A DNA stretch of 64,000 bases, from positions 1,984,001 to 2,048,000 of the forward strand of contig NC_007778.1 in NCBI RefSeq assembly GCF_000013365.1, read 5' to 3'. This DNA is from Rhodopseudomonas palustris HaA2. GTDB lineage: Bacteria > Pseudomonadota > Alphaproteobacteria > Rhizobiales > Xanthobacteraceae. Shown here one piece after another: positions 18,749 to 34,351 of this stretch (positions within the stretch are counted from its first letter, which is position 1; each line of letters opens with the position of its first letter). The notes under the pieces are model-generated. The model saw only the letters and a program-made list of their open reading frames with translations. It did no database searches and was not told where the DNA came from. The position numbers and the translations under genes are program-made.

Positions 18749-21442
18749 TCAGACCGTCTCGCCCACCTTCGCCCCCGCCACGATCTTGCGCAGCTCCGGC
18801 AGGCACGAGCCGCAATTGGTGCCGGCGCGCAGGTGCCTGCCGATGTCGTCGACGCTGATCGCGGCGGCGCTCTCGATCGCGTCGCGGATGCTGGTGAGGC
18901 CGACGCCGAAGCAGGCGCAGACGATCGGTCCGGTGTCGGCGACGCCGTCGGTGGAGCGGCCGGACAGCACGGCGCGGCGCTGCCGATCGGGCAGCGCGTC
19001 AGCCTCGAACAGCGTCTTCACCGCGTCCCATGTCGGCGTCGCCTCGGCCGGGCCGACGAACAGGCAGCCGATCAGCCGACCGTTCTCGAACGCCGCCGCG
19101 CGAAAACTCTGGCGCGGTGCGTCGAGATACTCGGCGAGCTCGACGCCGTCGCCGAACAGCGTCGCGGCGCGACCGCGCCACGCGGAGGCGGGTTCGTCGC
19201 TCGCGATCAGCAGGCCCGCGCCGTTGCGCACCGCGACGCGTGCCCACCAATCGTCCCCGGACAGCGTCAGCGGTTGCCGCGACAGCACGAAGCCGCGCAG
19301 CGCGTAGTCGACTCGCGCGATCGCGGCCGGCGTCGCCTTGGCTTCCGGCTGACCCGAGAACGGATCGGTGACCGGCGCCACCAGCGCGCCGACGCGCGCC
19401 GTCGCCGCGGTCTCGCCGCTCCAATGGATCGGCGCGAACAGCGAGCCGCGGCGTTGACCGGCACTGACGATCACCTTGAGGATGCAAGCGCCGTGCGTCG
19501 TCGTGATGCGCGCGAAGCCGCCGTCCTTCAAGCCGGCCGCTGCCGCATCGTCCGGATGCAGCTCGACGAACGGCTCCGGCAGATGCGCGCCGAGCCGCGG
19601 GCTGAGGCCGCTGCGAGTCATGGTGTGCCACTGGTCGCGAACGCGGCCGGTGTTGAGCAGCAGCGGGAACGCGGGCGAGGGCGCTTCGTGCAAGGCTGGC
19701 ATCGCCGGCGCGATCAGCCGCGCGCGACCATCGGGCGTGAAGAAATGCCCGTCGGCGAAGAATCGCGTGTCGGTCGCAGGCTTGCCCGCGCGCGCCGGCC
19801 ATTGCACCGGATCGAGCGCGTTGAAGGCCTCGTCACTGAGGTCGGCCAACGCGCCGATGTCGAAATCGCGGCGGCCGTCGTTCTCGAAAGCCGAGAGTGC
19901 GGCGTGCTCGCGAAACACCTGCGCGGCCGAGTGATAAGCGAAAGCGTCGCCGAATCCCATGCGCTGCGCGACCTGCGCGACGCTCCACCAATCCGGCTTC
20001 GCCTCGCCCGGCAGCGGCAGGAACGCCCGTTGCCGCGAGATCCGGCGTTCCGAATTGGTGACGGTGCCGTCCTTCTCGCCCCAAGCGGCCGCCGGCAGCA
20101 GCACATGCGCGCCGGCGGCGACGGTGTCGTTGCTGATCACGTTCTCGGAGATCACCAAGAGGTCTAGCTTCCGCAGCGCCTCCTGCACGACGTCGGCGCG
20201 GGGCAGCGACACTGCCGGGTTGGTGGCCATGATCCACAGCGCCTTGATCTCGCCGCGGTCGATCGCCTCGAACAATTGCACCGCCTTCAGCCCTTCGCGC
20301 CGCGCCATGTTCGGCGCGCGCCAGAACCGGCCGACGCGATCGATCGCCTCGGCGTCGAAGCCCATATGCGCGGCGAGCTGATTGGCGAGGCCGCCGACCT
20401 CGCGACCGCCCATCGCGTTGGGCTGCCCGGTGAGCGAGAACGGCCCCATGCCGGGCCGGCCGATCCGCCCGGTGGAGAGATGGCAGTTGATGATGGCGTT
20501 GACCTTGTCGGTGCCTTGCGCCGACTGATTGACGCCTTGCGAATAACAGGTCACGACGCGCTCTGTGGCGCGGAACAGCGCGAAGAAGCGCGCGATGTCG
20601 GCCGCGTCGACGCCCGTCATAGCCGCCGTCGCGGCGATGTCCGGCGCGATCTCCCGAGCGCGCACCAGCGCCTCGGTGAGGCCGGTGGTGTGGGCCTCGA
20701 GATAGGCGTCGTCGAGCGCCAGCGTATCGGCGAGATGTACGAGCAAGCCGCTGAACAGCACGGTGTCCATGCCGGGCGCGACCGGCAGGTGCAAATCGTC
20801 GTCCTCGACGCTCGCGGTGCGGCGCGGATCAATCACCACGATTGTCGCACCGCGCGCGCGCTTGTTGGCGATGATGCGCTGATACAGCACCGGATGGCAC
20901 CAGGCGGCGTTGGAGCCGACCAGCACGATCAGGTCGGCCTGATCGAGATCGGCGTAGGTCCCCGGCACGGTGTCGCTGCCGAAAGCGCGGCGATGGCCGG
21001 CGACCGAGGAGGCCATGCACAGTCGCGAATTGGTGTCGACATTGGCCGAGCCGACAAAACCCTTCATCAGCTTGTTTGCGACGTAGTAATCCTCGGTGAG
21101 CAATTGGCCCGACAGATAGAACGCGACCGAGTCCGGGCCGTGCTTGGCGATGACATCCGCAAAGCCGTTCGCAACCGTGTCCAGCGCATCATCCCAGGAC
21201 GTGCGTGCCATTGCGCTGTCGGCGCCGCGTCGCATCGGATGCAGCAGCCTTGTGTCGAGCGCCAGCGTTTCGCCGAGCGCCGAGCCCTTCGAGCACAGCC
21301 GGCCGAAATTCGCCGGATGCTCCGGATCGCCGGTGATTGCTGCGCCGCCTCGTCCATCGGGCTTGGCGAGCACGCCGCAGCCGACGCCGCAATAGGCGCA
21401 GGTGGTGCGCACCGCGGGCGGGTGTTGCGTCGGTGCGTTCAT
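18749..21442 (-). CDS. nasA: Assimilatory nitrate reductase catalytic subunit
   Basis: This 897-residue cytoplasmic Mo-bis-MGD enzyme reduces nitrate to nitrite. The N-terminal [4Fe-4S] site is CAYCGVGC with a fourth Cys in GRLCSKGSALGET. Molybdopterin domains follow (YLSGQLLTEDYY, VDTNSRLCMASS with the Mo-binding Cys region near residue 145, FSLTGQPNAMGGREVGG near residue 335). The last 60 residues form a BFD-like [2Fe-2S] domain (CACFGVG ... CGSCLPEL), an electron-entry site seen in proteobacterial NasA. No signal peptide. Its ATG overlaps the flavoreductase stop (TGATG), so it is the last gene of the operon. Confidence 0.95.
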   Translation of the reverse strand: MNAPTQHPPAVRTTCAYCGVGCGVLAKPDGRGGAAITGDPEHPANFGRLCSKGSALGETLALDTRLLHPMRRGADSAMARTSWDDALDTVANGFADVIAKHGPDSVAFYLSGQLLTEDYYVANKLMKGFVGSANVDTNSRLCMASSVAGHRRAFGSDTVPGTYADLDQADLIVLVGSNAAWCHPVLYQRIIANKRARGATIVVIDPRRTASVEDDDLHLPVAPGMDTVLFSGLLVHLADTLALDDAYLEAHTTGLTEALVRAREIAPDIAATAAMTGVDAADIARFFALFRATERVVTCYSQGVNQSAQGTDKVNAIINCHLSTGRIGRPGMGPFSLTGQPNAMGGREVGGLANQLAAHMGFDAEAIDRVGRFWRAPNMARREGLKAVQLFEAIDRGEIKALWIMATNPAVSLPRADVVQEALRKLDLLVISENVISNDTVAAGAHVLLPAAAWGEKDGTVTNSERRISRQRAFLPLPGEAKPDWWSVAQVAQRMGFGDAFAYHSAAQVFREHAALSAFENDGRRDFDIGALADLSDEAFNALDPVQWPARAGKPATDTRFFADGHFFTPDGRARLIAPAMPALHEAPSPAFPLLLNTGRVRDQWHTMTRSGLSPRLGAHLPEPFVELHPDDAAAAGLKDGGFARITTTHGACILKVIVSAGQRRGSLFAPIHWSGETAATARVGALVAPVTDPFSGQPEAKATPAAIARVDYALRGFVLSRQPLTLSGDDWWARVAVRNGAGLLIASDEPASAWRGRAATLFGDGVELAEYLDAPRQSFRAAAFENGRLIGCLFVGPAEATPTWDAVKTLFEADALPDRQRRAVLSGRSTDGVADTGPIVCACFGVGLTSIRDAIESAAAISVDDIGRHLRAGTNCGSCLPELRKIVAGAKVGETV

Positions 21443-23061
21443 CAATACACGTCCTGCTGGTAGCGGCCCTGCTTCTTCAGCTCGGAGACGAAGGCGGTGG
21501 CCTCCGCCGGCGTGCGCGCGCCGTGCTGCGCGACGATGTCGACCAGCGCTAGCTCGACGTCCTTGGCCATCCGCTTGGCGTCGCCGCAGACATAGATGTT
21601 CGCGCCTTCGGTGAGCCAGCTCCACAGATCGCGGCCGACCTCGCGCATCCGGTCCTGCACGTAGATCTTTTCGCCGCTGTCGCGCGACCATGCCAACGAC
21701 AGTCGCGTGAGGAGACCGCTGCGCTTCATCGCGTTGAGTTCGTCGTCGTAGAAGAAATCACAGGCCGAGCGCTGATGGCCGAAGAACAACCAGTTCTTGC
21801 CGGGCGCGGCCACCGCCTGCCGCTCGTGCAGGAAGGCGCGGAAGGGTGCGACGCCGGTGCCGGGGCCGATCATGATGATCGGCTGGTTCGGATCGGCCGG
21901 CAGCGCGAAATTGTGCGCCTTCTGCACATAGACGCGCACGGTGTCGCCGGGCGTCACGCGTTCGGCGAGGCCGGTCGAGCAGACGCCGAGCCGTTGCCGC
22001 TTGCCGATGGTGTAGCGCACGCAATCCACCGTCAGCGACAAGCGGCCGGGAGTCGTCTTCGGCGACGACGAGATCGAATACAGCCGCGGCTGCAGCGGAT
22101 CGAGCGCCTCGACGAAGGCTTCCGGATCGGGGCGGATGCCGGGAAACTTCTCCAGCGCCGCCAGCACGTCGAGCGTCGCGGCGTCGCCGTCCGGATCCTC
22201 GCCATTGGCGAGCGCGCGGGCTCTCTTCCGCTTGTCGCCACCGGTGATGTAGCTGATCAGCTGGAACAGCATGTCGGGCGCGGGCGCCAGCGACACGCTG
22301 TCGATCAGCGCCTCGCGCAGCGTGCGGTCGCCGATCGGGAACGTCGCGGGGGCGCCGAGCGCCTTCAGTACCAGCTCGACCAGCCTGGGATCGTTGCCCG
22401 GAAACAGCCCGAAGGAATCGCCGACCTCGTAGGCGAGGCCGTCTTCGAGGTCGAACTCGATGTGCCAGGTTTCCTTCTCGGAGCCGTCCTTGTTCAGCTT
22501 GCGGCGCGACAGCACTTTGGCCGTGGCCGGATTGTCGCGCGAGGTGCCGCGCGGCGGCAGCGCCACGGCGGGCGCCGCATCGGTCGCGAGCGATCGCGCG
22601 TTGTCGGCCTTCGGTGCGCTGCCGATCTGCTCGGCCAGCGTCTTGACCATGCGGGCGGTGTCCTTGCCGCCAGGGGCGCATAGATTCAGCCGCGTCTCTT
22701 TCCCTTCGAAGATCGCCGCCGAGTAGTTGCGGCAATCGTAGCCGCATTGGCCGCAATCCTGCTGCGCCATCGCGGCCATCAGCTTCCAGCGTAACGGCTT
22801 GCCGTCGGCGAGCTGCATCCGCTCCCCGATCGGCAGCGTCTGGTCGTGCCACGGCGCGCCGCCATCGTCGTCCTCCGCGGTGGGCGCCGGGCCGCCGGCC
22901 AGCAATGCGGCGGCCTGTTCGCTCGATAGCGCGGTGACGCCCGCGTCATCGAGCGAGACGAGGCCGGCGAAGAAACCGTTCAGCCAGGCGCGCTGCTCGT
23001 CGGAGAACGGCGCGGTCTCCGGGACCAGCATGGGGATCGGCGGCGGCATATTCTGGCTCAT
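21442..23061 (-). CDS. Fe-S/FAD/NAD(P)H flavoreductase (CysJ-like, no flavodoxin domain)
   Basis: This 539-residue protein has a helical N-terminal region with FSDEQRAWLNGFFAGLVSL. A four-Cys cluster motif, CGQCGYDC...C (spacing 2, 3, 16), lies around residues 105-130 and resembles an RnfB-type [4Fe-4S] domain. A CysJ/cytochrome P450 reductase-type FAD domain (RLYSISSSP, GVCSTGLAERV) and NAD(P) domain (MIGPGTGVAPFRAF, YVCGDAKRMAKDV) end in the usual aromatic residue (DVY). The flavodoxin (FMN) domain of CysJ is missing. It is coupled on both sides (ATGA with nirA, TGATG with nasA), so it probably feeds electrons to NasA and/or NirA. Often annotated as sulfite reductase alpha; context argues for nitrate assimilation. 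Confidence 0.85.
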   Translation of the reverse strand: MSQNMPPPIPMLVPETAPFSDEQRAWLNGFFAGLVSLDDAGVTALSSEQAAALLAGGPAPTAEDDDGGAPWHDQTLPIGERMQLADGKPLRWKLMAAMAQQDCGQCGYDCRNYSAAIFEGKETRLNLCAPGGKDTARMVKTLAEQIGSAPKADNARSLATDAAPAVALPPRGTSRDNPATAKVLSRRKLNKDGSEKETWHIEFDLEDGLAYEVGDSFGLFPGNDPRLVELVLKALGAPATFPIGDRTLREALIDSVSLAPAPDMLFQLISYITGGDKRKRARALANGEDPDGDAATLDVLAALEKFPGIRPDPEAFVEALDPLQPRLYSISSSPKTTPGRLSLTVDCVRYTIGKRQRLGVCSTGLAERVTPGDTVRVYVQKAHNFALPADPNQPIIMIGPGTGVAPFRAFLHERQAVAAPGKNWLFFGHQRSACDFFYDDELNAMKRSGLLTRLSLAWSRDSGEKIYVQDRMREVGRDLWSWLTEGANIYVCGDAKRMAKDVELALVDIVAQHGARTPAEATAFVSELKKQGRYQQDVY

Positions 23062-24818
23062 GCACCGGTCTCCAGAGCGAACAGACGTTGCAGCGTCGGG
23101 GTGTCGTGGCGGCGCGCGAAGGCGAGGAAGGTTTCGTCCGGCGAAGCGCGTTGCGCGAGATACGTGCTCAGCATTTGCGCGATGACACGCGGCGCGTCGT
23201 CCTGTCTGACGTCGCGCAGCACTTCGGCGCCGATCGCGGCGCCTTCGCCGAACGCACCGCCGACATGGATGTGGAAGCCCTCGACGGTGTCTTCGTCGGA
23301 GATCGCCACCTTGGCGCCGATCAGGCCGATGTCGCTGATGTAATGTTGCGCGCAGGAATGATGGCAGCCGGTGAGGTGGATGTTCACCGGCGTGTCGAGT
23401 GGCACCCGCGGCTCGCAATAGCCCGCGATGGCTTCGGCGGTTTCCTTGGTCTTGGCGGCGCCGAACCGGCAGCCGGTGGCGCCAGTGCAGGCGATCAGTC
23501 CGGCGCGGATCGGACTGGCGTCGATCGCGAGGCCGAGCGCGACGATCGCCGCACTTGCGTCCGCGACACGCGCGTCCGGAACGCCGGAGATCAACAGGTT
23601 CTGCCACACGGTCAGCCGGATATCGCCGTCGCCGAAATTGTGCGCAATCTCGGCGAGGCCGCGCATCTGCGCGCTCGTCAGCTTGCCGAGCGGCAGCCGC
23701 ACGCCGATCCAGTTCAGCCCGGCCTGCTTCTGGCGATGGACGCCGATATGCGCGGCGCGATCCTGCGCCGGCCGTGGCTGCGCGGCCTCCGCGGGCACGC
23801 GCACCAGCTTGCGTCCGAGCCGCCCCTCGACCCGCCTGAGAAACTCATCGAAGCCGAAACGGTCGAGCACGTATTTCAGCCGCGACCTGGCCCGGTCGGT
23901 GCGGTCGCCGTGCTCGATGAACACCCGCACGATCGCGTCCGAGACTTCGGTCGCTTCATCCGGCGGCACGATCACGCCGGTGTCGCGGGCAAAATCCTTG
24001 TGGCCGGTGATGCCGCCGAGCGAGAGCCGGAACCACACGCCCGGTTCGACGCCGTGGCCGTCGCCGATCGTCACCGCCTGGAACGCGATGTCGTTGGTGT
24101 CCTCCAGCGTCGGGATCAGCCCGCCACCGTCGAAGGCGACGTTGAATTTGCGCGGCAGGCCGTACAGCGCGCGCTCGTTGAGGATGTGGAAGTGCCACTC
24201 GCGCGCGTAAGCGCGGGTGTCGAGCAATTCCTGCGGATCGATGCCGGCGGTGGCCGAACCGGTGACGTTGCGGATGTTGTCGGCGCCGGCGCCGCGCGCC
24301 CACAGGCCGAGCGACTCGATGCCTTCGATCAGAGTCACGGCGTTCTTCGGCGCGATCTCGCGCATCTGCAGATTGGCGCGCGTCGTCACGTGGGAATAGC
24401 CGCCGGCACAATTGTCGGCGATGTCGGCGAGGCCCTGCATCTGCCACGACGTCAGCACGCCATTGGGAATCCGCAACCGGCACATATAGGAGCTCTGGGT
24501 CGGGGCGACGTAGAACAGCCCGTAAAAGCGCCAGCGGAAATTGTCGGCCGGCTTCGGCGGCGTATTTGTCTTGGCCTGCTGCTTCAGCCGCGCATAGGCG
24601 TCGAACGGATGCTCCTCGCGCTTCCACTTCTCCGCTTCGGCGAGTTTCTTGCCCGCGGCAGTGTAGCGATCCTGCGCGGCGATGTGGATCGCGTCGGGGC
24701 CGGAGGGCTGCGCGCTGCCGGCGGCGGGCAGGGCGCCGCGCTGCACCCGCGCGGCGTTGATGCCGGTGGCGAAGCCTTCCAGGTATCGCTTCTGGTCGAT
24801 CGTGAATTCGCTTCCCAT
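23058..24818 (-). CDS. nirA: Ferredoxin-type nitrite reductase (siroheme/[4Fe-4S])
   Basis: This 586-residue enzyme of the nitrite/sulfite reductase family reduces nitrite to ammonium. The N-terminal half has FYGLFYVAPTQSSYMCRLRIP near residue 95 and the parallel SADNCAGGYSHVTTRANLQ-type ferredoxin-like repeat. The cluster/siroheme Cys set is CTGATGCRFG near residue 440 and TGCHHSCAQH near residue 480 (C-x5-C, C-x3-C). The ATG at 24818 has GAGGA upstream; a longer frame upstream lacks support. It begins seven bases after the FAD reductase stop and overlaps the flavoreductase start by four. Confidence 0.93.
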   Translation of the reverse strand: MGSEFTIDQKRYLEGFATGINAARVQRGALPAAGSAQPSGPDAIHIAAQDRYTAAGKKLAEAEKWKREEHPFDAYARLKQQAKTNTPPKPADNFRWRFYGLFYVAPTQSSYMCRLRIPNGVLTSWQMQGLADIADNCAGGYSHVTTRANLQMREIAPKNAVTLIEGIESLGLWARGAGADNIRNVTGSATAGIDPQELLDTRAYAREWHFHILNERALYGLPRKFNVAFDGGGLIPTLEDTNDIAFQAVTIGDGHGVEPGVWFRLSLGGITGHKDFARDTGVIVPPDEATEVSDAIVRVFIEHGDRTDRARSRLKYVLDRFGFDEFLRRVEGRLGRKLVRVPAEAAQPRPAQDRAAHIGVHRQKQAGLNWIGVRLPLGKLTSAQMRGLAEIAHNFGDGDIRLTVWQNLLISGVPDARVADASAAIVALGLAIDASPIRAGLIACTGATGCRFGAAKTKETAEAIAGYCEPRVPLDTPVNIHLTGCHHSCAQHYISDIGLIGAKVAISDEDTVEGFHIHVGGAFGEGAAIGAEVLRDVRQDDAPRVIAQMLSTYLAQRASPDETFLAFARRHDTPTLQRLFALETGA

Positions 24819-24825
24819 CAGGTCC

Positions 24826-26058
24826 TCAAGCGGCAACGGATTTGCCGGCGCGCGCAGCGAGCGCACGGCCGAACATCATGTCGTGGCGAATGGCGTCGAT
24901 CGATTGGCCGGAGCGGATCAGGTCGAGATACCAGAGCCCGTCGGCCGTATCGCCGAACAGCACGCAGCCGGTCAGCCTGTCTCCCTTGATCACCAGCTTC
25001 TTGTAGCTGCCGAGGCCCGGGTCGGTGAGCACGATCTCCTCGGTGCCCGGGCTGCCGAGGAAATCGCCGGCCGAGAACAGATCGACGCCCGACACTTTGA
25101 GATTGGTCGCCAGCACGCTGCCGCGATAGGCGCCGTCGCGGCCCGCGAGATGCGAGGCCAGTGCGCGCGCCTGCTCGTAAGCCGGCTCGACCAGGCCGTA
25201 GCAAGCGCCGCGATGTTCGGCGCATTCGCCGATCGCGTAGATGTCGCGCTTGCTGGTTTGCAGATGATCGTCGACCAGAATGCCGCGGCCGATGTCGAGG
25301 CCGGCGGCGCGCGCCAGTTCGACATTGGGGCGGATGCCGGCGGCGACCACGACGAGATCGGCGGCGAGGGTGCGGCCGTCGGCGAGCTGCACCGCCTCGA
25401 CGCGGCCGTCGCCGATGATCGCCGCGGTGTCGGCGGAGAGTTCGACAGTGATGCCCTTGCGCTCGACCGCGCGCTTGAGCATCGCGGCGGCGGTCGGATC
25501 GAGCTGGCGCTCCATCAGCCGGTCCATCAGGTGTACCACGGTGACCTTTGTGCCGGATTTGGCGAGGCCGTAGGCGGCCTCGAGCCCGAGCAATCCGCCG
25601 CCGATCACCACGGCGCTGCGGCCACCGGAGGCGGCCTGTTCGATCGCCGCGACGTCGGCGAGATCGCGGAAGGTGAGCACGCCCGGCAGCTCCATGCCGG
25701 GCACGTTCAGCCGGATCGGCTTCGAGCCGGTGGCGATCACCAGTCGGGAGAACGGTAGCGTCGCGCCGGTGGCGAGCCGCACCCGGCGGATCGCGGGATC
25801 GATCGCCTTCGCTGCGGCGCTCTCGCCGTACAGCAGCGTGACGCCGCGGTCGCGCCACCATTGCGCCGGCCGCAGCTCGATCTCGGTGGCCGGGATTTCG
25901 CGCGCCAGCACCGACGACAACAGCACGCGGTTGTAGGCGAGCCGCGGCTCGTCGCCGATCACCGCGATGGCGTAGCGGCCGAGCGCGGTCTTGGCGAGTT
26001 CCTCGACCAGCCGCACCGCCGCCATGCCGTTGCCGATGATGACGAGCGGCTCGCTCAT
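24826..26058 (-). CDS. FAD-dependent pyridine nucleotide reductase (NirB N-terminal-like)
   Basis: This 410-residue flavoprotein resembles the FAD/NAD(P)H half of NirB and rubredoxin reductases. It has an FAD motif IIGNGMAAVRLVEEL at residue 7, GSKPIRLNVPG near residue 112, an NAD motif VVIGGGLLGLEAAYGLA near residue 148 and the FAD-closing DIYAIGECAEH near residue 268. The siroheme domain of true NirB is missing; nitrite reduction is instead encoded by nirA next door. It probably passes electrons from NAD(P)H to NirA, NasA or the adjacent globins. The last option is attractive because globin genes directly precede it, but unproven. Confidence 0.88.
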   Translation of the reverse strand: MSEPLVIIGNGMAAVRLVEELAKTALGRYAIAVIGDEPRLAYNRVLLSSVLAREIPATEIELRPAQWWRDRGVTLLYGESAAAKAIDPAIRRVRLATGATLPFSRLVIATGSKPIRLNVPGMELPGVLTFRDLADVAAIEQAASGGRSAVVIGGGLLGLEAAYGLAKSGTKVTVVHLMDRLMERQLDPTAAAMLKRAVERKGITVELSADTAAIIGDGRVEAVQLADGRTLAADLVVVAAGIRPNVELARAAGLDIGRGILVDDHLQTSKRDIYAIGECAEHRGACYGLVEPAYEQARALASHLAGRDGAYRGSVLATNLKVSGVDLFSAGDFLGSPGTEEIVLTDPGLGSYKKLVIKGDRLTGCVLFGDTADGLWYLDLIRSGQSIDAIRHDMMFGRALAARAGKSVAA

Positions 26059-26079
26059 CGGCGGGCCTCGCCAATCCTT

Positions 26080-26226
26080 CCTTCTCCCCTTGTGGGAGAA
26101 GGTGGCGCGGACACCGTCCGCGCCGGATGAGGGGTGCCACGCGCAAGGCGCCGGCGTCCGCGCGACCCCTCACCCGCCTTCGACGCTGCGCGTCTCAGGC
26201 ACCCTCTCCCACAAGGGGAGAGGGAA
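26080..26226. repeat. Interspersed palindromic repeat (family A variant) inside the nas operon
   Basis: CCTTCTCCCCTTGTGGGAGAAGG and CGGACACCGTCCG hairpins are followed by ATGAGGGGTG, a spacer and inverted CCCCTCACC...CCCTCTCCCACAAGGGGAGAGGG. It occupies most of the 202-bp gap between the globin and FAD reductase genes. No gene is seen in this gap. Confidence 0.75.
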
Positions 26227-26260
26227 GGGGTGCGTGCCGTATCGCGCGCTGACTTCCTCA

Positions 26261-26680
26261 TCACGCCGCCACGCCATAGGCTTCCGCGATCATGTAGTTC
26301 GACAGCGTTGCGTAGGCCGCGGTCCACGCCTCGGCGAGGTCGGGCGTCCAGGCTCCGCCCAGCCCCTGTTCGAGCGTCCACAGCAGCGCGGCGCCGACCG
26401 GCGCGTAGTGCGTGGGCTGCACGCCGTAACTGACATGCAGTTTGGCGAGCCGGCTCGCCGCCGGCAGGATCGCCGGCAGATCGGTCAGCCCGCCGACCAC
26501 CACCGCGAGCGTGCCCATCAGCTTCTTACCCTGGTCGCGGATGTCCGCCTTGGCGAACAGCGGCTGCACCTCGGGCGCGATCTCGAACAGCCGGCCATAG
26601 AACAGGCTCGCCGCCTGTTCGGAAATCGGTGCGACCTTGGCGAAGCTCTGCTGAACCAGGGCGATCTGTGCGGGGGTCAT
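26261..26680 (-). CDS. Single-domain bacterial globin (first of two)
   Basis: This 139-residue Vitreoscilla-haemoglobin-like globin has LFYGRLFEIAPEVQPLF near residue 25 (Tyr at the distal B10 region), the E-helix GKKLMGTLAVVVGGL and the proximal His in RLAKLHVSYGVQPTHY near residue 85. A reductase domain is absent. Globins in nitrate-assimilation clusters (for example Bjgb of Bradyrhizobium) are linked to nitric oxide detoxification; that role is likely here. An AAGGAGAGG ribosome site precedes the ATG. A paralogous globin gene lies 85 bp upstream in the same direction. Confidence 0.92.
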   Translation of the reverse strand: MTPAQIALVQQSFAKVAPISEQAASLFYGRLFEIAPEVQPLFAKADIRDQGKKLMGTLAVVVGGLTDLPAILPAASRLAKLHVSYGVQPTHYAPVGAALLWTLEQGLGGAWTPDLAEAWTAAYATLSNYMIAEAYGVAA

Positions 26681-26765
26681 CGGACCTCTCCTTGCTGCGT
26701 GAGGGGAGGTCGTATGTCTTTGCGGGCCGCGATCGGTTCACGTCCCGCGACGTGCGCGAGGCACG

Positions 26766-27191
26766 TCAGGCGTAGGCGGCAGCGATCATCCGGCCGGACA
26801 GAAACACGTACAGCTTGGTCCAGGCGTCCTCGACGGCCGGCGTCCAGTGCGTGCCGAGACCTTCGCGCATGCTCCACAGCAGCGCCTCGCCGACCGGCGC
26901 ATAATGCGACGCTGTCACGCCGTAGTGCACGTGATCCCTGGCGAGCTTGTCGGCGACCGACAACAGCCCGGAGAGATTGTCGAGACTGCCGACGATCACC
27001 GCGAGGGTCGAGATGAACTTGCGCTTGAGGTTCGCCATGTCGTCGCGAAACAGCGGCCGCGAGTCCGGCACCAGTTCGAACAACCGGTCGTAGAACAGGT
27101 CGACCATCACGTTCGACCGCGGCCACATCCGGTCGAACGAGTTCTGAATCTCGGCGACTTCCGCCGGCGAAAGACCGTGTGAGCGAGACAT
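26766..27191 (-). CDS. Single-domain bacterial globin (second of two)
   Basis: This 141-residue globin is clearly paralogous to its neighbour. It has LFYDRLFELVPDSRPLF near residue 33, KRKFISTLAVIVGSL and the proximal-His segment KLARDHVHYGVTASHYAPVGEALL near residue 90. I chose the ATG at 27191 (MSRSHGLSPAEV) since it gives standard globin length; an upstream start would add an unlikely tail. It follows nrtD by 85 bp. The pair may be specialised, one for NO dioxygenation and one for oxygen or NO delivery, but this is speculation. Confidence 0.9.
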   Translation of the reverse strand: MSRSHGLSPAEVAEIQNSFDRMWPRSNVMVDLFYDRLFELVPDSRPLFRDDMANLKRKFISTLAVIVGSLDNLSGLLSVADKLARDHVHYGVTASHYAPVGEALLWSMREGLGTHWTPAVEDAWTKLYVFLSGRMIAAAYA

Positions 27192-27276
27192 GGCGCGCAG
27201 TAATCCGGAAATGCGGGGACGCATTCATGCGATTTGCCCTCGAATGTCAAGTGTCATCGATTTGTCATCGAGCGTG

Positions 27277-28071
27277 CTAAGCGGCCTCGATGTAGCGATG
27301 ACGCTCGTAGAGGAATTCGAGCACGCGCTGACGGCACTTGAGATAGGTCGCGTTGGTGGCGAGCTCGAGCCGCTTGCGCGGGTGCGGCAGCGGCACGTCG
27401 AGCACTTCGCCGATCCGCGCCGACGGCCCGTTGGTCATCATCACGATGCGGTCGCTGAGCAGCACCGCCTCGTCGACGTCGTGGGTGATCATCAGGATGG
27501 TGTTGTTCAGCTTCTGGTGCAGCGCCATCACCGAGTCCTGCAGATGCGCGCGGGTCAGCGCGTCGAGCGCGCCGAACGGCTCGTCGAGCAGCAGCACTTT
27601 CGGCTCCATCGCCAGCGCGCGGGCGATGCCGACGCGCTGCTTCATGCCGCCGGAGATTTCCGACGGCCGCTTGTCGGCGGCGTGCGCCATCTGCACCAGA
27701 TTGAGATTGTGCAGCGTCCAGTCGTGGCGCTCGGTTCGCGACTTGCTCTTGGCGAACACCTTGTCGACGCCGAGCCGGACGTTCTGATACACGGTCAGCC
27801 AGGGCAGCAGGCTGTGGTTCTGAAACACGACGGCGCGGTCCGGCCCCGGCGAATTCACCTCGCGGTCCTCCAGCAGCACGCCGCCGATCGTCGCCCGCGT
27901 CAGCCCGGCGACGATGTTGAGCAGCGTGGACTTGCCGCAGCCGGAGTGGCCGATGATCGAGACGTATTCGCCGCGGTCGATCGTCAGGCTGATATCCTTC
28001 AACACTTCGGTGGTGGCGGCGCCGCGGGTGAAGGTCTTGTCGATGTGATCGAGCTTGAGATAAGCGGTCAT
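27277..28071 (-). CDS. nrtD: Nitrate ABC transporter ATPase
   Basis: This 264-residue ATPase of the nitrate/sulfonate/taurine family has Walker A GHSGCGKSTLLN near residue 42, ABC signature ISGGMKQRVGIARAL near residue 138, Walker B VLLLDEPFGALDALTR near residue 158 and the switch His in ITHDVDEAVLLSDR. It energises the NrtA/NrtB system in the inner membrane. It begins 13 bases after nrtB. The single-domain form fits the proteobacterial NrtD; the cyanobacterial NrtC fusion is absent. Confidence 0.9.
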   Translation of the reverse strand: MTAYLKLDHIDKTFTRGAATTEVLKDISLTIDRGEYVSIIGHSGCGKSTLLNIVAGLTRATIGGVLLEDREVNSPGPDRAVVFQNHSLLPWLTVYQNVRLGVDKVFAKSKSRTERHDWTLHNLNLVQMAHAADKRPSEISGGMKQRVGIARALAMEPKVLLLDEPFGALDALTRAHLQDSVMALHQKLNNTILMITHDVDEAVLLSDRIVMMTNGPSARIGEVLDVPLPHPRKRLELATNATYLKCRQRVLEFLYERHRYIEAA

Positions 28072-28084
28072 GTCGCGCGCTCCC

Positions 28085-28984
28085 TTAACCTGCAGAGGTG
28101 CCGTGGGTGACGATCCGGCCGAGCCCCGCGATCATGCGGTCGAGCACGAAGCCGATGATGCCGACATAGAACAGCGCCAGAATGATCTCGCTGATATGCG
28201 AAGAATTCCAGGCGTCCCAGATGAAGAAGCCGATGCCGACGCCGCCGATCAGCATCTCGGCGGCAATGATCGCCAGCCACGACAGGCCGATGCCGATACG
28301 CAGGCCGGTGAAGATGTAGGGCGCCGCCGAGGGCAGCATCACCTTGGTGAAAAACTCCAACGGATTGAGCTGCACCACGGCGGCGACGTTGCGATAGTCC
28401 TGCGGAATGTTGCGGATGCCGACAGCGGTGTTGATGATGATCGGCCAGATCGAGGTGATGAAGATCACGAAGATCGCCGAGGGCTGGCCGTCGCGGAAGG
28501 CGGCGAGCGCCAGCGGCAGCCAGGCCAGCGGCGGAATCGTGCGCAACACCTGGAAGATCGGATCGAGTCCGCGCATCGCCCACACCGACTGGCCGACCAG
28601 CACGCCGAGCGCGATGCCGACGATCGCCGCCAGCGAGTAGCCCAGCGCGACACGCTGCAGGCTGGCGCTCAGATGCCAGAACAGCCCCTTGTCGAGGCCG
28701 CCGCGATCGAAGAACGGATCGAAGATCAACTCCTTGGTGTCGCTGTAGACCTTGGACGGCGGCGGCAACGCCGAACCCGCCTGGCGGCAGACCAGCTCCC
28801 AGAACACCATCAGCAGCGTGAACACGATCAGCGGCGGGATCACCCGGGCCGCGGTCTCGCGCGCCGCCTTGATGTATTTGTCCGCGCGCGGCTGCAGCTT
28901 CGGTCGCATCGCCACCACCGCGGAAGGTGGCGGCGCGAGCACGGTGATGGTCTCGGTCTCGGATTTGATGGCGGTCATCGACAT
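28085..28984 (-). CDS. nrtB: Nitrate ABC transporter permease
   Basis: This 299-residue inner-membrane permease has six or so spans and the binding-protein-dependent transport motif, with RTIPPLAWLPLALAAF near residue 165 and a WPIIINTAVGIRNIPQDYRNVAAVV coupling loop near residue 185. A long cytoplasmic N-terminus (about 45 residues) precedes the first span. Two ATGs (28984 and 28977) are possible. It follows nrtA by 61 bp and precedes nrtD by 13 bp. Confidence 0.9.
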   Translation of the reverse strand: MSMTAIKSETETITVLAPPPSAVVAMRPKLQPRADKYIKAARETAARVIPPLIVFTLLMVFWELVCRQAGSALPPPSKVYSDTKELIFDPFFDRGGLDKGLFWHLSASLQRVALGYSLAAIVGIALGVLVGQSVWAMRGLDPIFQVLRTIPPLAWLPLALAAFRDGQPSAIFVIFITSIWPIIINTAVGIRNIPQDYRNVAAVVQLNPLEFFTKVMLPSAAPYIFTGLRIGIGLSWLAIIAAEMLIGGVGIGFFIWDAWNSSHISEIILALFYVGIIGFVLDRMIAGLGRIVTHGTSAG

Positions 28985-29045
28985 CGGCGTGGCTCTCCGT
29001 CGTCAGAAGGGGAGGGCCGCGCCTGCGCGCGGCCCATGGTGGCGG

Positions 29046-30359
29046 TTACGCATCGACGCGCTTGATCGACAGCGACTTCAGGTACGCGGCGGGATCTGCC
29101 GGGTCGAACACCTTGCCGTCGAAGAACGTCTCCTGGCCGCGCGAGGTCGAGGCCGGCAGCGCGCTGACGCCCAGCGCCTTGGCGGCGTCCTTCCACAAAT
29201 CCTCGCGGTTGACCTTGGCGATCAGCGCCTTGCTGTCGAAGCCCGGTTCGTACTTGCCCCAGCGGATGTCCTCGGTCATGAACCACAGATCGTGGCTCTG
29301 ATACGGGTAGGAGGCGAAGTCGTCCCAGAACTTCATGATGTGCGGCGAGTTCTCGACCACCTTGCCGGTGCCGTAGTCGAACTTGCCCTTGACCCGGTCG
29401 GTGACATCGTCGACCGGGCAGTTGATCCACTGCCGCTTGGCGCAGATCGCCGCGACCTCGTCGCGGTTCTCCGGCCTGTCGCACCATTGCTGCGCTTCCA
29501 GCACCGCCATCAGCAGCGCCTTGGCGGCCTTCGGGTACTTGTCGACCCAGGCGGCGCGCATGCCGAAGGATTTTTCCGGATGCTTGTTCCAGAGTTCGCC
29601 GGTGGTGATCGCGGTGTAGCCGATGTTCTGGTGGATCAGCTGCAGATTCCACGGCTCGCAGACGCAGAAGCAGTCCATCGTGCCGACCTTCATGTTGGCC
29701 ACCATCTGCGGCGGCGGCACCACGATGGTTTCGATGTCCTTGTCGGGATCGATGCCGCCGGCCGCGAGCCAGTAGCGGATCCACAGATCGTGGGTGCCGC
29801 CGGGGAAGGTCATCGCCGCCTTGATCGCCTTGCCGGAGGCCTTCTTCTTCTCCAGCGCGACTTTGAACGGCGCGGTGTCGAGACCGACCTTGATGTCGGC
29901 ATATTCCTTGGCGACCGAGATGCACTGGCCGTTCAGATTGAGCCGCGCCAGTATGTACATCGGCGTCGGCACGTTGTTCTGCGTCACCTTGCCGGCGCTG
30001 ATCAGATAGGGCATCGGCGTGAGGATGTGCGCGCCGTCGATGCCGTTGCCTTCGGAGCCGAGCACGAGGTTGTCGCGCGTGGTGCCCCACGACGCCTGCT
30101 TCAGCACTTCGACGTCGGGCATGCCGTATTTGGCGAAGATGCCCTTCTCCTTGGCGACGAACAGCGGCGAGGCGTCGGTCAGCGCGATGAAGCCGAGCTT
30201 GGCGCCCTTCACCTCGGGGCCGCCCTCCTGCGCGAAGGCGCCGCCGGGCAAGTTCAGCTTCGCTGCAGCGAGCAATGCGGCTGCGCTGCCACCGGCCTTC
30301 AGGAGTTGGCGGCGGCTCACTCTGCTTCCGGTGCGGTCCTTGCTGATCATCGTTGCCAT
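29046..30359 (-). CDS. nrtA: Nitrate ABC transporter substrate-binding protein
   Basis: This 437-residue periplasmic nitrate/nitrite receptor starts with a twin-arginine signal (SRRQLLKAGG, then a hydrophobic stretch and GGAFAQ), so it is probably exported folded. The mature part has the family blocks GFIALTDASPLFVAKEKGIFAKYG, GIDGAHILTPMPYLI, FPGGTHDLWIRYWLAAGGIDPDKD and DCFCVCEPWNLQLI. The ATG at 30359 has AGGGA upstream. It is the first structural gene of the operon and its leader carries the promoter and antitermination element described below. Confidence 0.93.
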   Translation of the reverse strand: MATMISKDRTGSRVSRRQLLKAGGSAAALLAAAKLNLPGGAFAQEGGPEVKGAKLGFIALTDASPLFVAKEKGIFAKYGMPDVEVLKQASWGTTRDNLVLGSEGNGIDGAHILTPMPYLISAGKVTQNNVPTPMYILARLNLNGQCISVAKEYADIKVGLDTAPFKVALEKKKASGKAIKAAMTFPGGTHDLWIRYWLAAGGIDPDKDIETIVVPPPQMVANMKVGTMDCFCVCEPWNLQLIHQNIGYTAITTGELWNKHPEKSFGMRAAWVDKYPKAAKALLMAVLEAQQWCDRPENRDEVAAICAKRQWINCPVDDVTDRVKGKFDYGTGKVVENSPHIMKFWDDFASYPYQSHDLWFMTEDIRWGKYEPGFDSKALIAKVNREDLWKDAAKALGVSALPASTSRGQETFFDGKVFDPADPAAYLKSLSIKRVDA

Positions 30360-30421
30360 GTTCCCTGCTGGGGTCGCGCGACCCTGTTTGTCGGTGATGC
30401 GGACGCCTTCGAAAAATCGGC

Positions 30422-30478
30422 AAAAAAAAGCCGCCGCCTGGCCTCGCTTGCACGAGCCAGGACAGCGGCATTGCTGTC
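30422..30478 (-). terminator. nrtA leader: ANTAR-type hexaloop hairpin overlapping an intrinsic terminator
   Basis: Read on minus, a 6-bp hairpin GACAGC-AAUGCC-GCUGUC lies at 30478-30461; its six-base loop has A at position 1 and G at position 4, the ANTAR-protein signature. The loop and 3' arm form the 5' arm of a longer GC-rich hairpin (30469-30430) that is followed by eight U (30429-30422), a classic terminator. The two folds exclude one another. A further hairpin (30510-30487) lies 8 bases upstream, a possible first stem-loop, but its loop lacks the A/G pattern. NasT, encoded nearby, is the expected binder. Confidence 0.75.
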
Positions 30479-30528
30479 GGAGTTTTCGATGGACGCCGGG
30501 GCACCCATCGGTGACCCGTACTAAGCAT

Positions 30529-30545
30529 TGCGAAAACCGTGCCAA
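30529..30545 (-). promoter_or_regulatory. Sigma-54 (-24/-12) promoter of nrtA
   Basis: Read on minus, TTGGCACGGTTTTCGCA matches the sigma-54 consensus YTGGCACGrNNNTTGCW at all fixed positions but one, with the required GG-N10-GC spacing. It predicts a start near 30518, immediately before the leader hairpins. This indicates NtrC-type control by nitrogen status. Confidence 0.75.
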
Positions 30546-30709: not shown

Positions 30710-30906
30710 CCTTCTCCCCGCGCGCGGGGAGAAGGCTGGAATGAGGGGGCGCCTCAAGTCACCCGCCCCTGGAGGGGGAGGGTCGCTCGCGTAGCGAGCG
30801 GGGTGGGGTGGCGAAGAGTTCATCCGCCGTGCCTGCGGCTCACCCCACCCCGTCCCGCATCCCGCGATGCGGGCTGCGCGCCGACCCTCCCCCTCCAGGG
30901 GAGGGT
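30710..30906. repeat. Interspersed palindromic repeats (family A variant and GGAGGGGGAGGG element)
   Basis: CCTTCTCCCCGCGCGCGGGGAGAAGG is followed by an element reading CCTGGAGGGGGAGGGTCG, CTCGCGTAGCGAG, GGGTGGGGTGG, its inverted copy and CCGCATCCCGCGATGCGGG. It lies between the 3' end of nasS and the nrtA control region. Confidence 0.7.
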
Positions 30907-30927
30907 GAACAGAGAGGTGACCACGCC

Positions 30928-32088
30928 TCAGCGCCGGATCGTCAGCGCCGACAGATAGCCGGCGATGTCGTCCGGATCGAAATGCGTGCCGGTGCATTCG
31001 CCGATGCCGTCGGCGGGCGCGATCGGCAGGATCGGCGGCGTGCCGACGGCGGCGTCGTAGAGGTCGGGCCGGAACACAGCCTTGGCGGCGGCGAGCAGTT
31101 CGGCCGACAGCGGCGCCTGGCCCCAGCGCACCATCTGCGCGTAGTTCCACGCGCCCTGCACCGGATCGGGCCGTGCCGCGGCTTCGCGGCCGACCAGCAG
31201 ATAGCGGCCGGTCTCGCGGATGCGGCCTTCGGGCGAGACTTTGAGGCGGCCGTCCAGGGTGCGGCGGATCAGCTCCGGCGTCACTTCGATCCGGCCCGGC
31301 GCGGTGAGAATCGCGCAGACCTCGTCGCGATTGGGTTCGTGCTCGATGAATTGCGCGGCGCGATCGTGCGCCCGGATCAGCCGCGCCAGCGTCTCCGGAT
31401 GTCCTTCGGCCCATGAGGCGCGCACCGCCAGCATCTTCTCCGCGGCGCGCTGGAACAGCTCGCAGGAGAAATGCAGGATGTGGCCGATGCCGAGATCGAT
31501 CGCCACCGAATTCCACGGCGCGCCGACGCAGAAGCCGTCGAGATGTTTGTTGGCGAGGCTCTCGACCATGTAGGGCGGCGGCAGCACCACGAGGCGGACG
31601 TCTTCGTCGGGATCGACCCCGCCAGCGCCCATCCAGAACCGCAGATCGTAATTGTGGCTGGAGAACGGGAAGGTCATGCCGAAGATCAGCGGCTCCAGCC
31701 CCAGCGCCTTGCGCTCGGCGACGACGCGCGCCAGCGCCCGCGCCGACACCAGCGGATCGGCGACGTCGCCCTCGGCCATCGCCGCGATCGCAGCCTGCAG
31801 ATCCGGCGACACCGTGATGGCGTTGCCGTTGACGCCGAGGCCGAAGCCGGAAATCACCGGCACCTTGATGTGGCCGATGCCGAGGCTGGAGGCGACCGCC
31901 ATCGGCGCCAACAGATGCGCGGCGTCGAATAGGCCGATGTTGAATTTGTCGCGGACATTGGCCCAGGAGATTTCGCGCACCAGCTCGACGTCGAGCCCCT
32001 CGGTGGCGCAGAACCCCTTGTCGACGGCGACGATCAGCGCCGCGGCGTCGGCCAGCGGGATGAATCCGATGCGCAGGCGCTCGCTCAT
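30928..32088 (-). CDS. nasS: NasS nitrate/nitrite sensor (cytoplasmic NrtA-like protein)
   Basis: This 386-residue protein is homologous to NrtA (GFIPLADAAALIVAVDKGF, FDAAHLLAPMAVA, MTFPFSSHNYDLRFWMGAGGVDPDED, GFCVGAPWNSVAIDLGIG) but begins at the mature fold without any signal peptide, so it is cytoplasmic. That fits NasS, which binds NasT when nitrate is absent and releases it when nitrate or nitrite is bound. Its ATG overlaps the nasT stop (ATGA). In other species nasS precedes nasT; here the order is reversed. Confidence 0.9.
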   Translation of the reverse strand: MSERLRIGFIPLADAAALIVAVDKGFCATEGLDVELVREISWANVRDKFNIGLFDAAHLLAPMAVASSLGIGHIKVPVISGFGLGVNGNAITVSPDLQAAIAAMAEGDVADPLVSARALARVVAERKALGLEPLIFGMTFPFSSHNYDLRFWMGAGGVDPDEDVRLVVLPPPYMVESLANKHLDGFCVGAPWNSVAIDLGIGHILHFSCELFQRAAEKMLAVRASWAEGHPETLARLIRAHDRAAQFIEHEPNRDEVCAILTAPGRIEVTPELIRRTLDGRLKVSPEGRIRETGRYLLVGREAAARPDPVQGAWNYAQMVRWGQAPLSAELLAAAKAVFRPDLYDAAVGTPPILPIAPADGIGECTGTHFDPDDIAGYLSALTIRR

Positions 32089-32669
32089 TTCAGCATCTCC
32101 GACGCGGTGACCACCGACTGGGCGATCTCGGCGATTTTCTTCTTCTCGTTCATGGCCGTCGTCCGCAGCAGCACATAGGCCTGCTCTTCGGTCAGGCCCT
32201 TGGCCTTCATCAGAATGCCCTTGGCGCGGTCGATCACCTTGCGATCGTCCAGCGCGCTGCGGGCGCGGTGCAGTTCAGTCTCGAGATGGGCGAAGGCGTT
32301 GAAGCGCGAGATGCACAGGTCGAGGATGTGCTTCATTCGCTCCTTTTTCAGCCCGTCGACGATATAGGCCGAGACGCCGGCGTCGACCGAGGCCTGGATC
32401 GAGGCGGTGTCGCTCTGGTCGACGAACATCGCGATCGGCCGCTTCACGATGCGGCTGACCTGGAACATCTGCTCCAGCATGTCGCGGCTTGGGTTCTCCA
32501 GATCGATCAGGATGACGTCGGGGTCGATCTCGTAGATCCGCGCCAGCAGGTTGGTGGTCGCGGCCAGATAGGTGATCTGCGACATCCCGGCCTCGCGCAG
32601 CCCCTCGGTGAGAATCCCGGCACGCACCGGGTTCTCGTCGACGATCACGATTTTCAGCAGCGGGTCCAT
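32085..32669 (-). CDS. nasT: NasT ANTAR-domain antiterminator
   Basis: This 194-residue regulator has an N-terminal receiver-like domain (KIVIVDENPVRAGIL; IDPDVILIDLENPSRD near residue 50) and a C-terminal three-helix ANTAR RNA-binding domain (DRKVIDRAKGILMKAKGLTEEQAYVLLRTTAM, residues 138-170). It is expected to bind hexaloop hairpins in the nrtA leader and prevent termination when NasS carries nitrate. The ATG at 32669 removes a 20-residue unconserved extension. It is divergent from glpK across a 176-bp gap. Confidence 0.93.
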   Translation of the reverse strand: MDPLLKIVIVDENPVRAGILTEGLREAGMSQITYLAATTNLLARIYEIDPDVILIDLENPSRDMLEQMFQVSRIVKRPIAMFVDQSDTASIQASVDAGVSAYIVDGLKKERMKHILDLCISRFNAFAHLETELHRARSALDDRKVIDRAKGILMKAKGLTEEQAYVLLRTTAMNEKKKIAEIAQSVVTASEMLK

Positions 32670-32845
32670 TCGGGGCAGCGGTGTCTCGGTCGGTCGCACC
32701 TGGTCGACAAACCACAGTCCGGCGGCCAATTGAAGGAGATTCGGTGGGCGGCGCGCAAGCCGGGCTGCCGATATTGACGCCGCAGGCGTGATCGGGTGGT
32801 GTGCGGCGAAACCCTTTCACACTCTGCAAGCCGGGATGAACGCTC

Positions 32846-34351
32846 ATGCCTTTCGTGATGGCCATCGATCAGGGCACCACTTCGTCGCGCGCGATCCTGT
32901 TCCGTGGCGATATTTCGATCGCGGCCTCGGCGCAGCAGGAATTCCCGCAGCATTTCCCCGCCTCCGGCTGGGTCGAGCACGAGCCCGAGGACATCTGGGC
33001 CTCGACGCTGGCGACCTGCCGGGCCGCGATGGAGAAGGCAGGGGCCACCGCCGCCGATATCGCCGCGATCGGCATCACCAACCAGCGGGAGACCGTGGTG
33101 GTGTGGGACGCGGCGTCCGGCAAGGCGATCCACCGCGCCATCGTCTGGCAGGATCGCCGCACCGCGGAGGTCTGCACCCGCATGAAGGCGGACGGCTATG
33201 AGCCGATGATCACCGACAAGACCGGGCTGATCATCGATCCGTATTTCTCCGGCACCAAGGTCGCCTGGCTACTCGACAACGTGCCCGGCGCGCGCGCCCG
33301 CGCCGAGCGCGGCGAACTCAAATTCGGCACCATCGATTGCTGGCTGCTGTGGCGGCTGACCGGCGGCCGCGTCCACGCCACCGACGCCACCAACGCCTCG
33401 CGCACGCTGCTGTTCAACATCCACACCGGCGATTGGGACGACGAGCTGCTGCAGCTGCTGCGCGTGCCGCGCTCGATGTTGCCGGAGGTCAAGGATTCCT
33501 CCGCGCATTTCGGCGACAGCGCCTACGAACTGTTCGGTGCCCCGATCGCCATTCGCGGCATCGCCGGCGACCAGCAGGCCGCCACCATCGGGCAGGCCTG
33601 TTTCTCGCCGGGCATGATCAAATCGACTTACGGCACCGGCTGCTTCGCCCTGCTCATCACCGGCGCGACGCCGGTGAAGTCGCACAACAAGCTGCTCACC
33701 ACCATCGCCTATCAGCTCGGCGGTAAGCGTACCTACGCGCTGGAGGGCTCGATCTTCGTCGCGGGCTCGGCGGTGCAATGGCTGCGCGACGGCCTCGGCA
33801 TCATCAAGCACGCCAGCGAGACCGGCCCCCTCGCCGACAAATCCGATTCGATGCAGAGCGTTTATCTGGTGCCGGCCTTCGTCGGCCTCGGCGCGCCGTA
33901 CTGGAATCCGCGAGTGCGCGGCGCGCTGTTCGGCATGACGCGCAACACCGGCCCGGCCGAGCTGGCGCACGCCGCGCTGGAGAGCGTCTGCTATCAGACC
34001 TACGATCTATGGGCGGCGATGCGCGCCGACTGGTCGGGCGCCGACGCCGCGCCGCCGGTGCTGCGCGTCGACGGCGGCATGGCGGCGTCGGACTGGACCA
34101 TGCAGCGCCTCGCCGATCTCCTCGACGCCCCGGTAGACCGCCCCGTGATCCAGGAAACCACCGCGCTCGGCGCCGCGTATCTCGCCGGCCTCTCAGCCGG
34201 CGTCTTCCCCGAGCCGCAGAAATTCGCCGACAACTGGCGCCTCGACCACCGCTTCAGGCCGGCGATGAGCCAGGCGACGCGCGAGAGGAAGCTGGCGGGA
34301 TGGGGCAGGGCGGTGAAGGGGCTGCTGGCGAGTGATGAGGGGGAGGGGTAG
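32846..34351 (+). CDS. glpK: Glycerol kinase
   Basis: This 501-residue FGGY-family sugar kinase converts glycerol and ATP to sn-glycerol 3-phosphate. It has the N-terminal phosphate motif [26 protein letters not shown] near residue 74, [14 protein letters not shown] near residue 135, [15 protein letters not shown] near residue 260 and the FGGY C-terminal signature near [19 protein letters not shown]. Length is standard. It is a single gene here, with no glpF or glpD beside it; transcription diverges from nasT. Confidence 0.93.

Follow-up and report, generated by a model that had tools for sequence, protein, structure and literature searches.

A putative sigma-54 promoter and one-hexaloop ANTAR attenuator ahead of nrtA in Rhodopseudomonas

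The leader of nrtA in Rhodopseudomonas palustris HaA2 very likely integrates two signals, a sigma-54/NtrC promoter governing initiation and NasT antitermination acting through a hexaloop hairpin (P2) ahead of the gene. The promoter, the P2 hairpin and a terminator that overlaps it are kept together in 13/13 Rhodopseudomonas leaders, ahead of two different operons. An earlier note, made from the letters of this DNA, had proposed a sigma-54 promoter joined to an ANTAR antitermination leader and had named conservation of the hairpin/terminator overlap in related leaders as a check; the overlap is present in every leader of the genus, and both halves of the proposal now appear to be backed by comparative evidence. 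The DNA analysed (the window), to which all coordinates refer, is a 64,000-nucleotide stretch of a single-contig genome of 5.33 Mb, and its nas genes are arranged as follows:

32085-32669, minus strand: nasT, REC-ANTAR antiterminator of 194 aa, ATG at 32669
30928-32088, minus strand: nasS, NrtA-like nitrate sensor (NMT1_2), overlapping the end of nasT
29046-30359, minus strand: nrtA, nitrate-binding protein (NMT1_2), first gene of a presumed operon
18749-28984, minus strand: remainder of the presumed operon, with nrtB, an nrtC/D-type ATPase, a NirB-like reductase domain and a NirA-family nitrite reductase, and also within it a CysJ-like flavoprotein and a NasA-like molybdopterin nitrate reductase

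A REC-ANTAR protein and an NrtA-like sensor are thus encoded together, as in a NasS-NasT system, and they lie directly upstream of nrtA, where the earlier note had seen them, with a gap of 0.57 kb between nasS and nrtA. A search of the genome for ANTAR domains gave one match, NasT itself; the genome also holds one match for RpoN and one protein above the curated cut-off for NtrC. Two other open reading frames were tried and rejected: 28975-30528 as nrtA, which gave no family (the correct frame being 29046-30359), and 32275-32865 as nasT.

The nrtA leader spans 30545-30422 on the minus strand, in the order sigma-54 site, H0, AUCGA linker, P2, terminator and U8:

30529-30545, minus strand: putative sigma-54 (-24/-12) promoter TTGGCACGGTTTTCGCA, with a -12 box TCGC, not TTGC
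30497-30518, minus strand: H0, 5'-terminal hairpin CGGGUCACC-GAUG-GGUGCCCCG, which folds and shows pair changes among the 13 leaders
30487-30510, minus strand: the alternative, longer hairpin of the earlier note, which excludes H0 and is excluded by it
30479-30496, minus strand: GUCCAUCGAAAACUCC, the place of a seemingly lost P1; related genera have their P1 hexaloop hairpin at the aligned position, and here AUCG remains, stemless
30461-30478, minus strand: P2, putative antiterminator hairpin GACAGC-AAUGCC-GCUGUC, hexaloop with A1 and G4
30430-30469, minus strand: intrinsic terminator stem-loop, whose 5' arm is P2 loop positions 4-6 plus the P2 3' arm
30422-30429, minus strand: U8 tract of the terminator, read from the sequence

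P2 begins about 52 bases past the -12 box and is the sole match to GACAGC-AATGCC-GCTGTC in the window at up to two mismatches (0.25 expected), while a short pattern search of the genome was uninformative (2315/2234 matches against 2502/2413 in the reversed control). The terminator stem starts at P2 loop base G4 (30469), and since the two structures have loop bases 4-6 and the arm GCUGUC in common, they are mutually exclusive. The A1/G4 hexaloop following the promoter (30478-30461), the reuse of its loop and 3' arm as the 5' arm of the terminator and the closing run of eight U had all been described in the earlier note, and each was located as described. The T8 lies at 30429-30422, about 62 bases ahead of nrtA. 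Of 200 dinucleotide shuffles, only 1 matches or exceeds the folding of the leader (z -3.0). With the RNA cut at the end of P2, the P2 stem folds in 12/13 Rhodopseudomonas leaders, L088 being the exception, and in L084-L087 (4/13) loop bases A1 and U6 pair as well, giving a tetraloop; with the RNA extended to the U tract, the terminator folds in all 13.

Transcription would start near 30518, at the foot of H0. Changes on both sides of the stem back the pairing of H0 in Rhodopseudomonas, counted in the register that pairs best: at pair 7, six leaders have AU, six GC and one GU, and at pair 2, five have GC, four GU and two AU, with two unpaired. The hairpin at 30510-30487 can form, but it competes with the shorter one at 30518-30497; it appears in the nascent-RNA minimum-free-energy fold of two of the seven nrtA leaders (L082 and L084), with a related form in L123, and has no two-sided changes in the leader alignment. 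Neither hairpin has an A1/G4 hexaloop, which agrees with the earlier remark that the first stem-loop lacks the A/G loop pattern. Among the 35 family leaders described below, an H0-like fold at -5.6 kcal/mol or better occurs in 34 (L155 has none) and 26 of the 35 rank among the best 5 of 100 single-base shuffles; within the genus, 13/13 reach -10 kcal/mol or better and 11/13 pass the same shuffle test. H0 is thus found at the inferred transcript start of nearly all family leaders, with variable sequence, and in none of eight Methylobacterium leaders.

Within the genus, nrtA is found at E <= 1e-100 in 7/16 genomes and the leader is kept in all seven, ending in U8 in six and in U5 in L088. The same leader also stands beside nasTS and before another operon in five genomes without nrtA and in G015, one of the seven (leaders L118-L123; genomes G004-G007, G011 and G015). 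The genes of this second-type operon encode a globin, a NirA-like reductase and a flavoprotein in L118, the only one annotated, and its first gene starts in L119-L123 as it does in L118. None of the 13 leaders departs from TGGCAC, TCGC or the common P2 stem, and the first four U as well as loop bases A1, G4 and C5 are likewise constant. The P2 loops are AAUGCC, AACGCU, AAAGCC, AACGCC and ACCGCC, so that positions 2, 3 and 6 vary; loop base 6 has changed from C to U in four nrtA leaders (3/9 distinct rows), matched by a G to A change in its terminator partner. A covariance model of P2 and the terminator built from the 13 rows, with the promoter left out (R1), matches 12/16 genus genomes, and these are exactly the ones with a NasT-grade ANTAR match (74-77 bits). 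The element occurs in none of the four genomes without NasT, two of which lack an ANTAR match and two of which have weaker ones only. In the HaA2 genome, R1 gives one match at E <= 0.01 (E 1.1e-16). It has to be considered that the structure might simply terminate the nasTS transcript, nrtA having an unregulated promoter further on and the hexaloop arising by coincidence, as the terminator is located 3' of nasS in most leaders examined. This is highly improbable, because the terminator sits downstream of the sigma-54 promoter, because Rhodopseudomonas leaders keep the A1/G4 loop and the element goes with NasT, and because the nrtA leader of G015 is complete with no nasT or nasS match within the 11 kb read upstream, which argues that the element is not merely a nasS terminator.

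The sigma-54 consensus is TGGCACGNNNNTTGCW, with GG-10-GC spacing within TGGCACG-N4-TTGCW. The nrtA site, TTGGCACGGTTTTCGCA, was found where a near-perfect -24/-12 promoter had been noted (30545-30529, minus strand) and differs from the consensus by a single mismatch, C for T in the -12 box. Taken alone it is at chance level, since 2.3 matches are expected per window and two were found (pattern with that C and one further mismatch). TGGCAC, TCGC and the GG-10-GC spacing are nevertheless unchanging in 13/13 Rhodopseudomonas leaders, and a sigma-54 site lies 5' of P2 in 35/40 family matches. These constancies make it quite improbable that the element is real but its promoter is not of the sigma-54/NtrC type, nrtA being driven by a sigma-70 promoter or by read-through from nasTS, an explanation that draws on the TCGC box, on the chance level of the lone site and on the enhancer site of the nrtA promoter being only putative. 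The TCGC form is shared by the 13 Rhodopseudomonas leaders and the sister leaders L137 and L138, and the other family leaders listed have TTGA or TTGT. A palindrome, TGTGC-N3-GCACA, lies 5' of the sigma-54 site in 49/56 Bradyrhizobium-type loci, and a half site akin to it, CGCTGCACATTT, is found upstream in Rhodopseudomonas leaders; both are possible sites for an enhancer protein, in an orientation unlike the NtrC consensus.

R1 matched 52/296 family genomes, with 41 matches outside the genus. Forty of these form the main count; the 41st (G019:C459), taken later, has promoter, P1 and P2. An A1/G4 P2 hairpin is present in 35/40. Each of these 35 also carries, 58-86 bases ahead of the P2 loop, a sigma-54 site with a score of 8 or more out of 10 (10 in 28 of them), a score of 8 being reached by 5/700 shuffled upstreams. 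The other five, with neither an A1/G4 P2 nor a sigma-54 site, look like chance matches. Conservation of P2 in the family is partly selected, as R1 favours P2-like sequence and the P2 call needed A1/G4 (in L156 the scoring took P1 for P2), but the promoter and P1 lie outside R1. In an alignment of 44 leaders, 8/12 terminator pairs show two-sided changes, a number reached in 0/500 shuffles, and 85.6% of cells are paired, with pair T15-61 failing in 25/44 rows. Covariation of the P2 stem does not exceed shuffles, the stem being invariant in the genus and no better in the 44 leaders, so that the case for P2 rests on loop conservation and terminator overlap; the constancy of G4 and C5 may itself be due in part to the terminator. 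These 44 are of 49 listed rows, five Methylobacterium rows having been left out of the alignment and of the second covariance model made with it (R2). Leaders L057, L065 and L067 had been excluded from the R2 list for want of a T run, and of nine Methylobacterium leaders eight were used, L077 being excluded because its second loop did not fit the pattern. Apart from the match in HaA2 itself, R2 found 17 matches in 397 order genomes, with a sigma-54 score of at least 8 in 16/17, an A1/G4 P1 in 14/17 and G as P2 loop base 1 in 3/17. One nrtA of alphaproteobacterial type with a sigma-54 and P2 leader (L035, NZ_JTIY01000019.1) lies on a contig labelled Streptomyces sp. AcH 505 and is probably a contamination of that assembly.

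The usual layout in the family is H0, then P1 (often GGUCC-AAYGAC-GGGCC), then P2 with the terminator. An A1/G4 P1 at -3 kcal/mol or better was found in 28/35 family, 8/8 Methylobacterium and 1/13 Rhodopseudomonas leaders; in L084 the P1-like loop is closed by a single C-G pair (-4.3 kcal/mol) and is not counted as P1, and a wider search gave P1-like hairpins with one closing pair each in L082 (-2.6 kcal/mol) and L087 (-4.0 kcal/mol). By position, GUCC-AUCGA-AAACUCC in Rhodopseudomonas corresponds to GGGUCC-AUCGAU-GGCCC in Afipia-type leaders. AUCG is kept at this place in 13/13 Rhodopseudomonas leaders and AUCGA in 12/13, while the bases that would close the hexaloop pair in 1/13 (C-A in nine, C-C in three). 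In the sister leaders L137 and L138, P1 is broken or reduced to 3 bp, L138 keeping the 3-bp version. The P1 hexaloop of the dual ANTAR motif thus seems, from these alignments, to have been lost in Rhodopseudomonas and two sister genera. Measured against the dual-hexaloop definition (PMC3369931), the nrtA leader has a P2 of at least 3 bp with A1/G4 and, as in the added screen, an overlap of P2 with the terminator; the upstream P1 of at least 3 bp with A1/G4 is absent from Rhodopseudomonas leaders, in line with the earlier suspicion that the element may be one-sided. It does contain the hairpin of a minimal single-hexaloop ANTAR site (PMC8934654), to which ANTAR binding is predicted.

Could the element have two hexaloops after all, with AUCG (or ACCGAU in H0) becoming P1-like when NasT binds? 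The constancy of AUCG at the P1 place, which equals part of the Afipia-type loop AUCGAU, speaks for this, as do the 3-bp version in L138 and the drawable hairpin of L084 with its C-G closing pair. However, the closing bases are non-standard in 12/13 leaders, and in those 12 no A1/G4 hairpin at the P1 place reaches -3 kcal/mol; the hairpins of L082 and L087 offer a single closing pair. EutV contacts three closing stem base pairs (PMC8934654), and ACCGAU is engaged in the H0 stem. We therefore consider a hidden P1 unlikely.

A quick NasS tree was built for 54 leaders, 20 of 74 having been left out (19 without a usable NasS match, plus L201). One clade (SH-aLRT 100) unites L137 and L138 with 12 Rhodopseudomonas rows, and within it P2 is also strongest (-9 kcal/mol or better). 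Loss of P1 takes five changes on this tree, of which at least four are forced by well-supported branches; L148 is scored among the losses with its hairpin kept and only A1 missing. By eye, the ANTAR domains of NasT show no diagnostic substitution between leaders that lost P1 and leaders that kept it, and the AMN-x-K contact region is alike. P1 (A1/G4, -3 kcal/mol or better) is present in 3/19 leaders with P2 at -9 kcal/mol or better, 13 of which are from Rhodopseudomonas, against 34/37 with a weaker P2. The stabilities of P1 and P2 are inversely correlated (Spearman -0.68 in 35 family leaders, -0.62 in all 56), but only at -0.28 (p 0.07) in the 43 leaders outside Rhodopseudomonas. Rank tests outside the genus that ignore relatedness gave p 0.0005 (10 leaders without P1, 42 with) and, with eight Methylobacterium leaders added, p 0.0017, while on the tree of 54 the traits agree in 1.9 to 2.9 of four independent pairs and are never opposed, which is not significant. 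Since the association of P1 loss with a strong P2 falls short of significance when relatedness is allowed for, the trade-off is a hint only.

A different arrangement was observed in Bradyrhizobium/Tardiphaga-type loci. A hairpin GACGCC-AU(U/C)GNN-GCCGUC, with an A1/G4 hexaloop and a C-C mismatch, is present in 56/68 nrtA upstreams from outside Rhodopseudomonas and Methylobacterium (e.g. L025, L030 and L048), many of them close relatives. It always lies 27-28 bases past the start of the sigma-54 site (56/56, against 1/1120 shuffles). No canonical P2 was found in these 56 by pattern, and only eight have a T5 run within 140 bases. As far as such patterns tell, the Bradyrhizobium-type leader is a mirror image of the Rhodopseudomonas element.

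How would the nrtA leader work? When fixed nitrogen is scarce, NtrC (most likely) would activate sigma-54 polymerase, with a start near 30518. As long as nitrate is absent, NasS would keep NasT, the GC-rich terminator would fold and transcription would end at U8. With nitrate present, NasS would let NasT go, and NasT would bind the P2 hexaloop AAUGCC and keep P2 folded; P2 would then hold G4-C6 and GCUGUC, which the terminator needs, and polymerase would continue into nrtA and the nas genes. In Rhodopseudomonas, P2 alone would do the work, P1 being gone and the P2 stem having its full 6 bp. Several observations weigh against this two-signal scheme, namely the absence of P2 from the nascent-RNA fold of L088 and the four tetraloop folds, the G at loop base 1 in some order-level leaders, the off-consensus -12 box and P2 covariation that stays within the range of shuffles.

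ANTAR proteins bind hexaloops with A1 and G4, and the blocking of a terminator by stabilisation of P2 is established for EutV and has been proposed for NasR and AmiR (PMC3369931, PMC3369936). A EutV dimer binds one hexaloop at a time, and the 2022 structure paper proposes that P1 is a recruitment hairpin from which the dimer goes on to hold P2, both contacts being needed against termination; a longer linker abolishes antitermination (PMC8934654). This requirement for both hexaloops (PMC8934654, PMC3369931) argues against the sufficiency of P2, as does the finding in Paracoccus that mutation of the hairpin further upstream (HI) cuts expression severely and that of HII little (PMC5424462). By the same token, it makes the nrtA leader a candidate natural single-hexaloop attenuator. 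The EutV authors do allow for single-hexaloop sites where the time limit set by polymerase is absent, and call for more bioinformatics (PMC8934654); the nrtA leader would be such a site under the time limit of a moving polymerase. We tentatively propose, as a plausible but far from secure reading, that a single hexaloop suffices for the co-transcriptional ANTAR attenuator of Rhodopseudomonas and two sister genera, that a stronger P2 took over the role of the lost 'recruitment' hairpin P1, with at least four losses among related leaders on the quick NasS tree, and that Bradyrhizobium-type nrtA leaders kept the opposite half (a P1-type hairpin near the start, no canonical P2). If this is true, two-hexaloop antitermination is not obligatory, and recruitment by P1 and holding by P2 are separable. 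With cultured strains in these genera and relatives that keep P1, the question is directly testable by leader swaps.

Several nas systems are closely comparable. The nasAB promoter of Azotobacter vinelandii is reportedly sigma-54 dependent. Its leader is likewise subject to NasT antitermination (PMC12316311), and in a genome survey nitrate ABC transporter and ANTAR genes are predicted to be under sigma-54 control (PMC12316311). Ntr control combined with NasR or NasT is in fact already known (PMC5424462). In Klebsiella oxytoca, nasF is under starvation control by NtrA, NtrB and NtrC together with nitrate-responsive ANTAR antitermination (PMC5424462), and its P2 overlaps the terminator (PMC3369936), so the pairing in Rhodopseudomonas is not new; however, NasR itself senses nitrate and both P1 and P2 are present there, whereas Rhodopseudomonas has NasS-NasT and lacks P1. 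In Paracoccus denitrificans, nasTS also lies directly upstream of nasABGHC, control is exerted at the level of NtrC, and nitrate triggers dissociation of NasS from NasT, which binds the nasA leader RNA (PMC3795266, PMC5424462), but there the upstream hairpin HI is critical and HII is of little weight (PMC5424462). The EutV element of Enterococcus faecalis has an A1/G4 P2 that overlaps its terminator, too, but it uses two hexaloops at fixed spacing for antitermination (PMC3369931, PMC8934654), unlike the one of the Rhodopseudomonas leader. Finally, in the NasT regulon of Bradyrhizobium diazoefficiens, leaders of nitrate genes (nosR, nirA, narK) have hairpins for NasT that were either predicted or demonstrated (PMC6759348, PMC4724949), although the term nrtA is absent from the main text of PMC6759348. 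In R. palustris, the NasT gene RPA3706 has been placed beside the binding-protein gene RPA3707, in a passage that does not mention a leader (PMC3223731). Among the titles and abstracts listed from the open-access literature, we found no report of the Rhodopseudomonas nrtA leader or of a single-hexaloop attenuator. For nas operons, a two-input logic in which starvation acts at initiation and nitrate at termination is already established, and the weight of the present findings lies in the missing P1. The one-hexaloop form is, by its sequence, a variant of the known promoter-plus-ANTAR design, with a putative function.

An Rfam search gave no match at gathering scores; at relaxed E values it gave weak matches far under these scores, e.g. 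to microRNA models on a GC-rich repeat. The microRNA matches fall on GC-rich inverted repeats at about 30758-30909, in the gap between nasS and nrtA, beside a perfect 26-bp palindrome, CCTTCTCCCCGCGCGCGGGGAGAAGG, at 30710-30735, which occurs once in the window.
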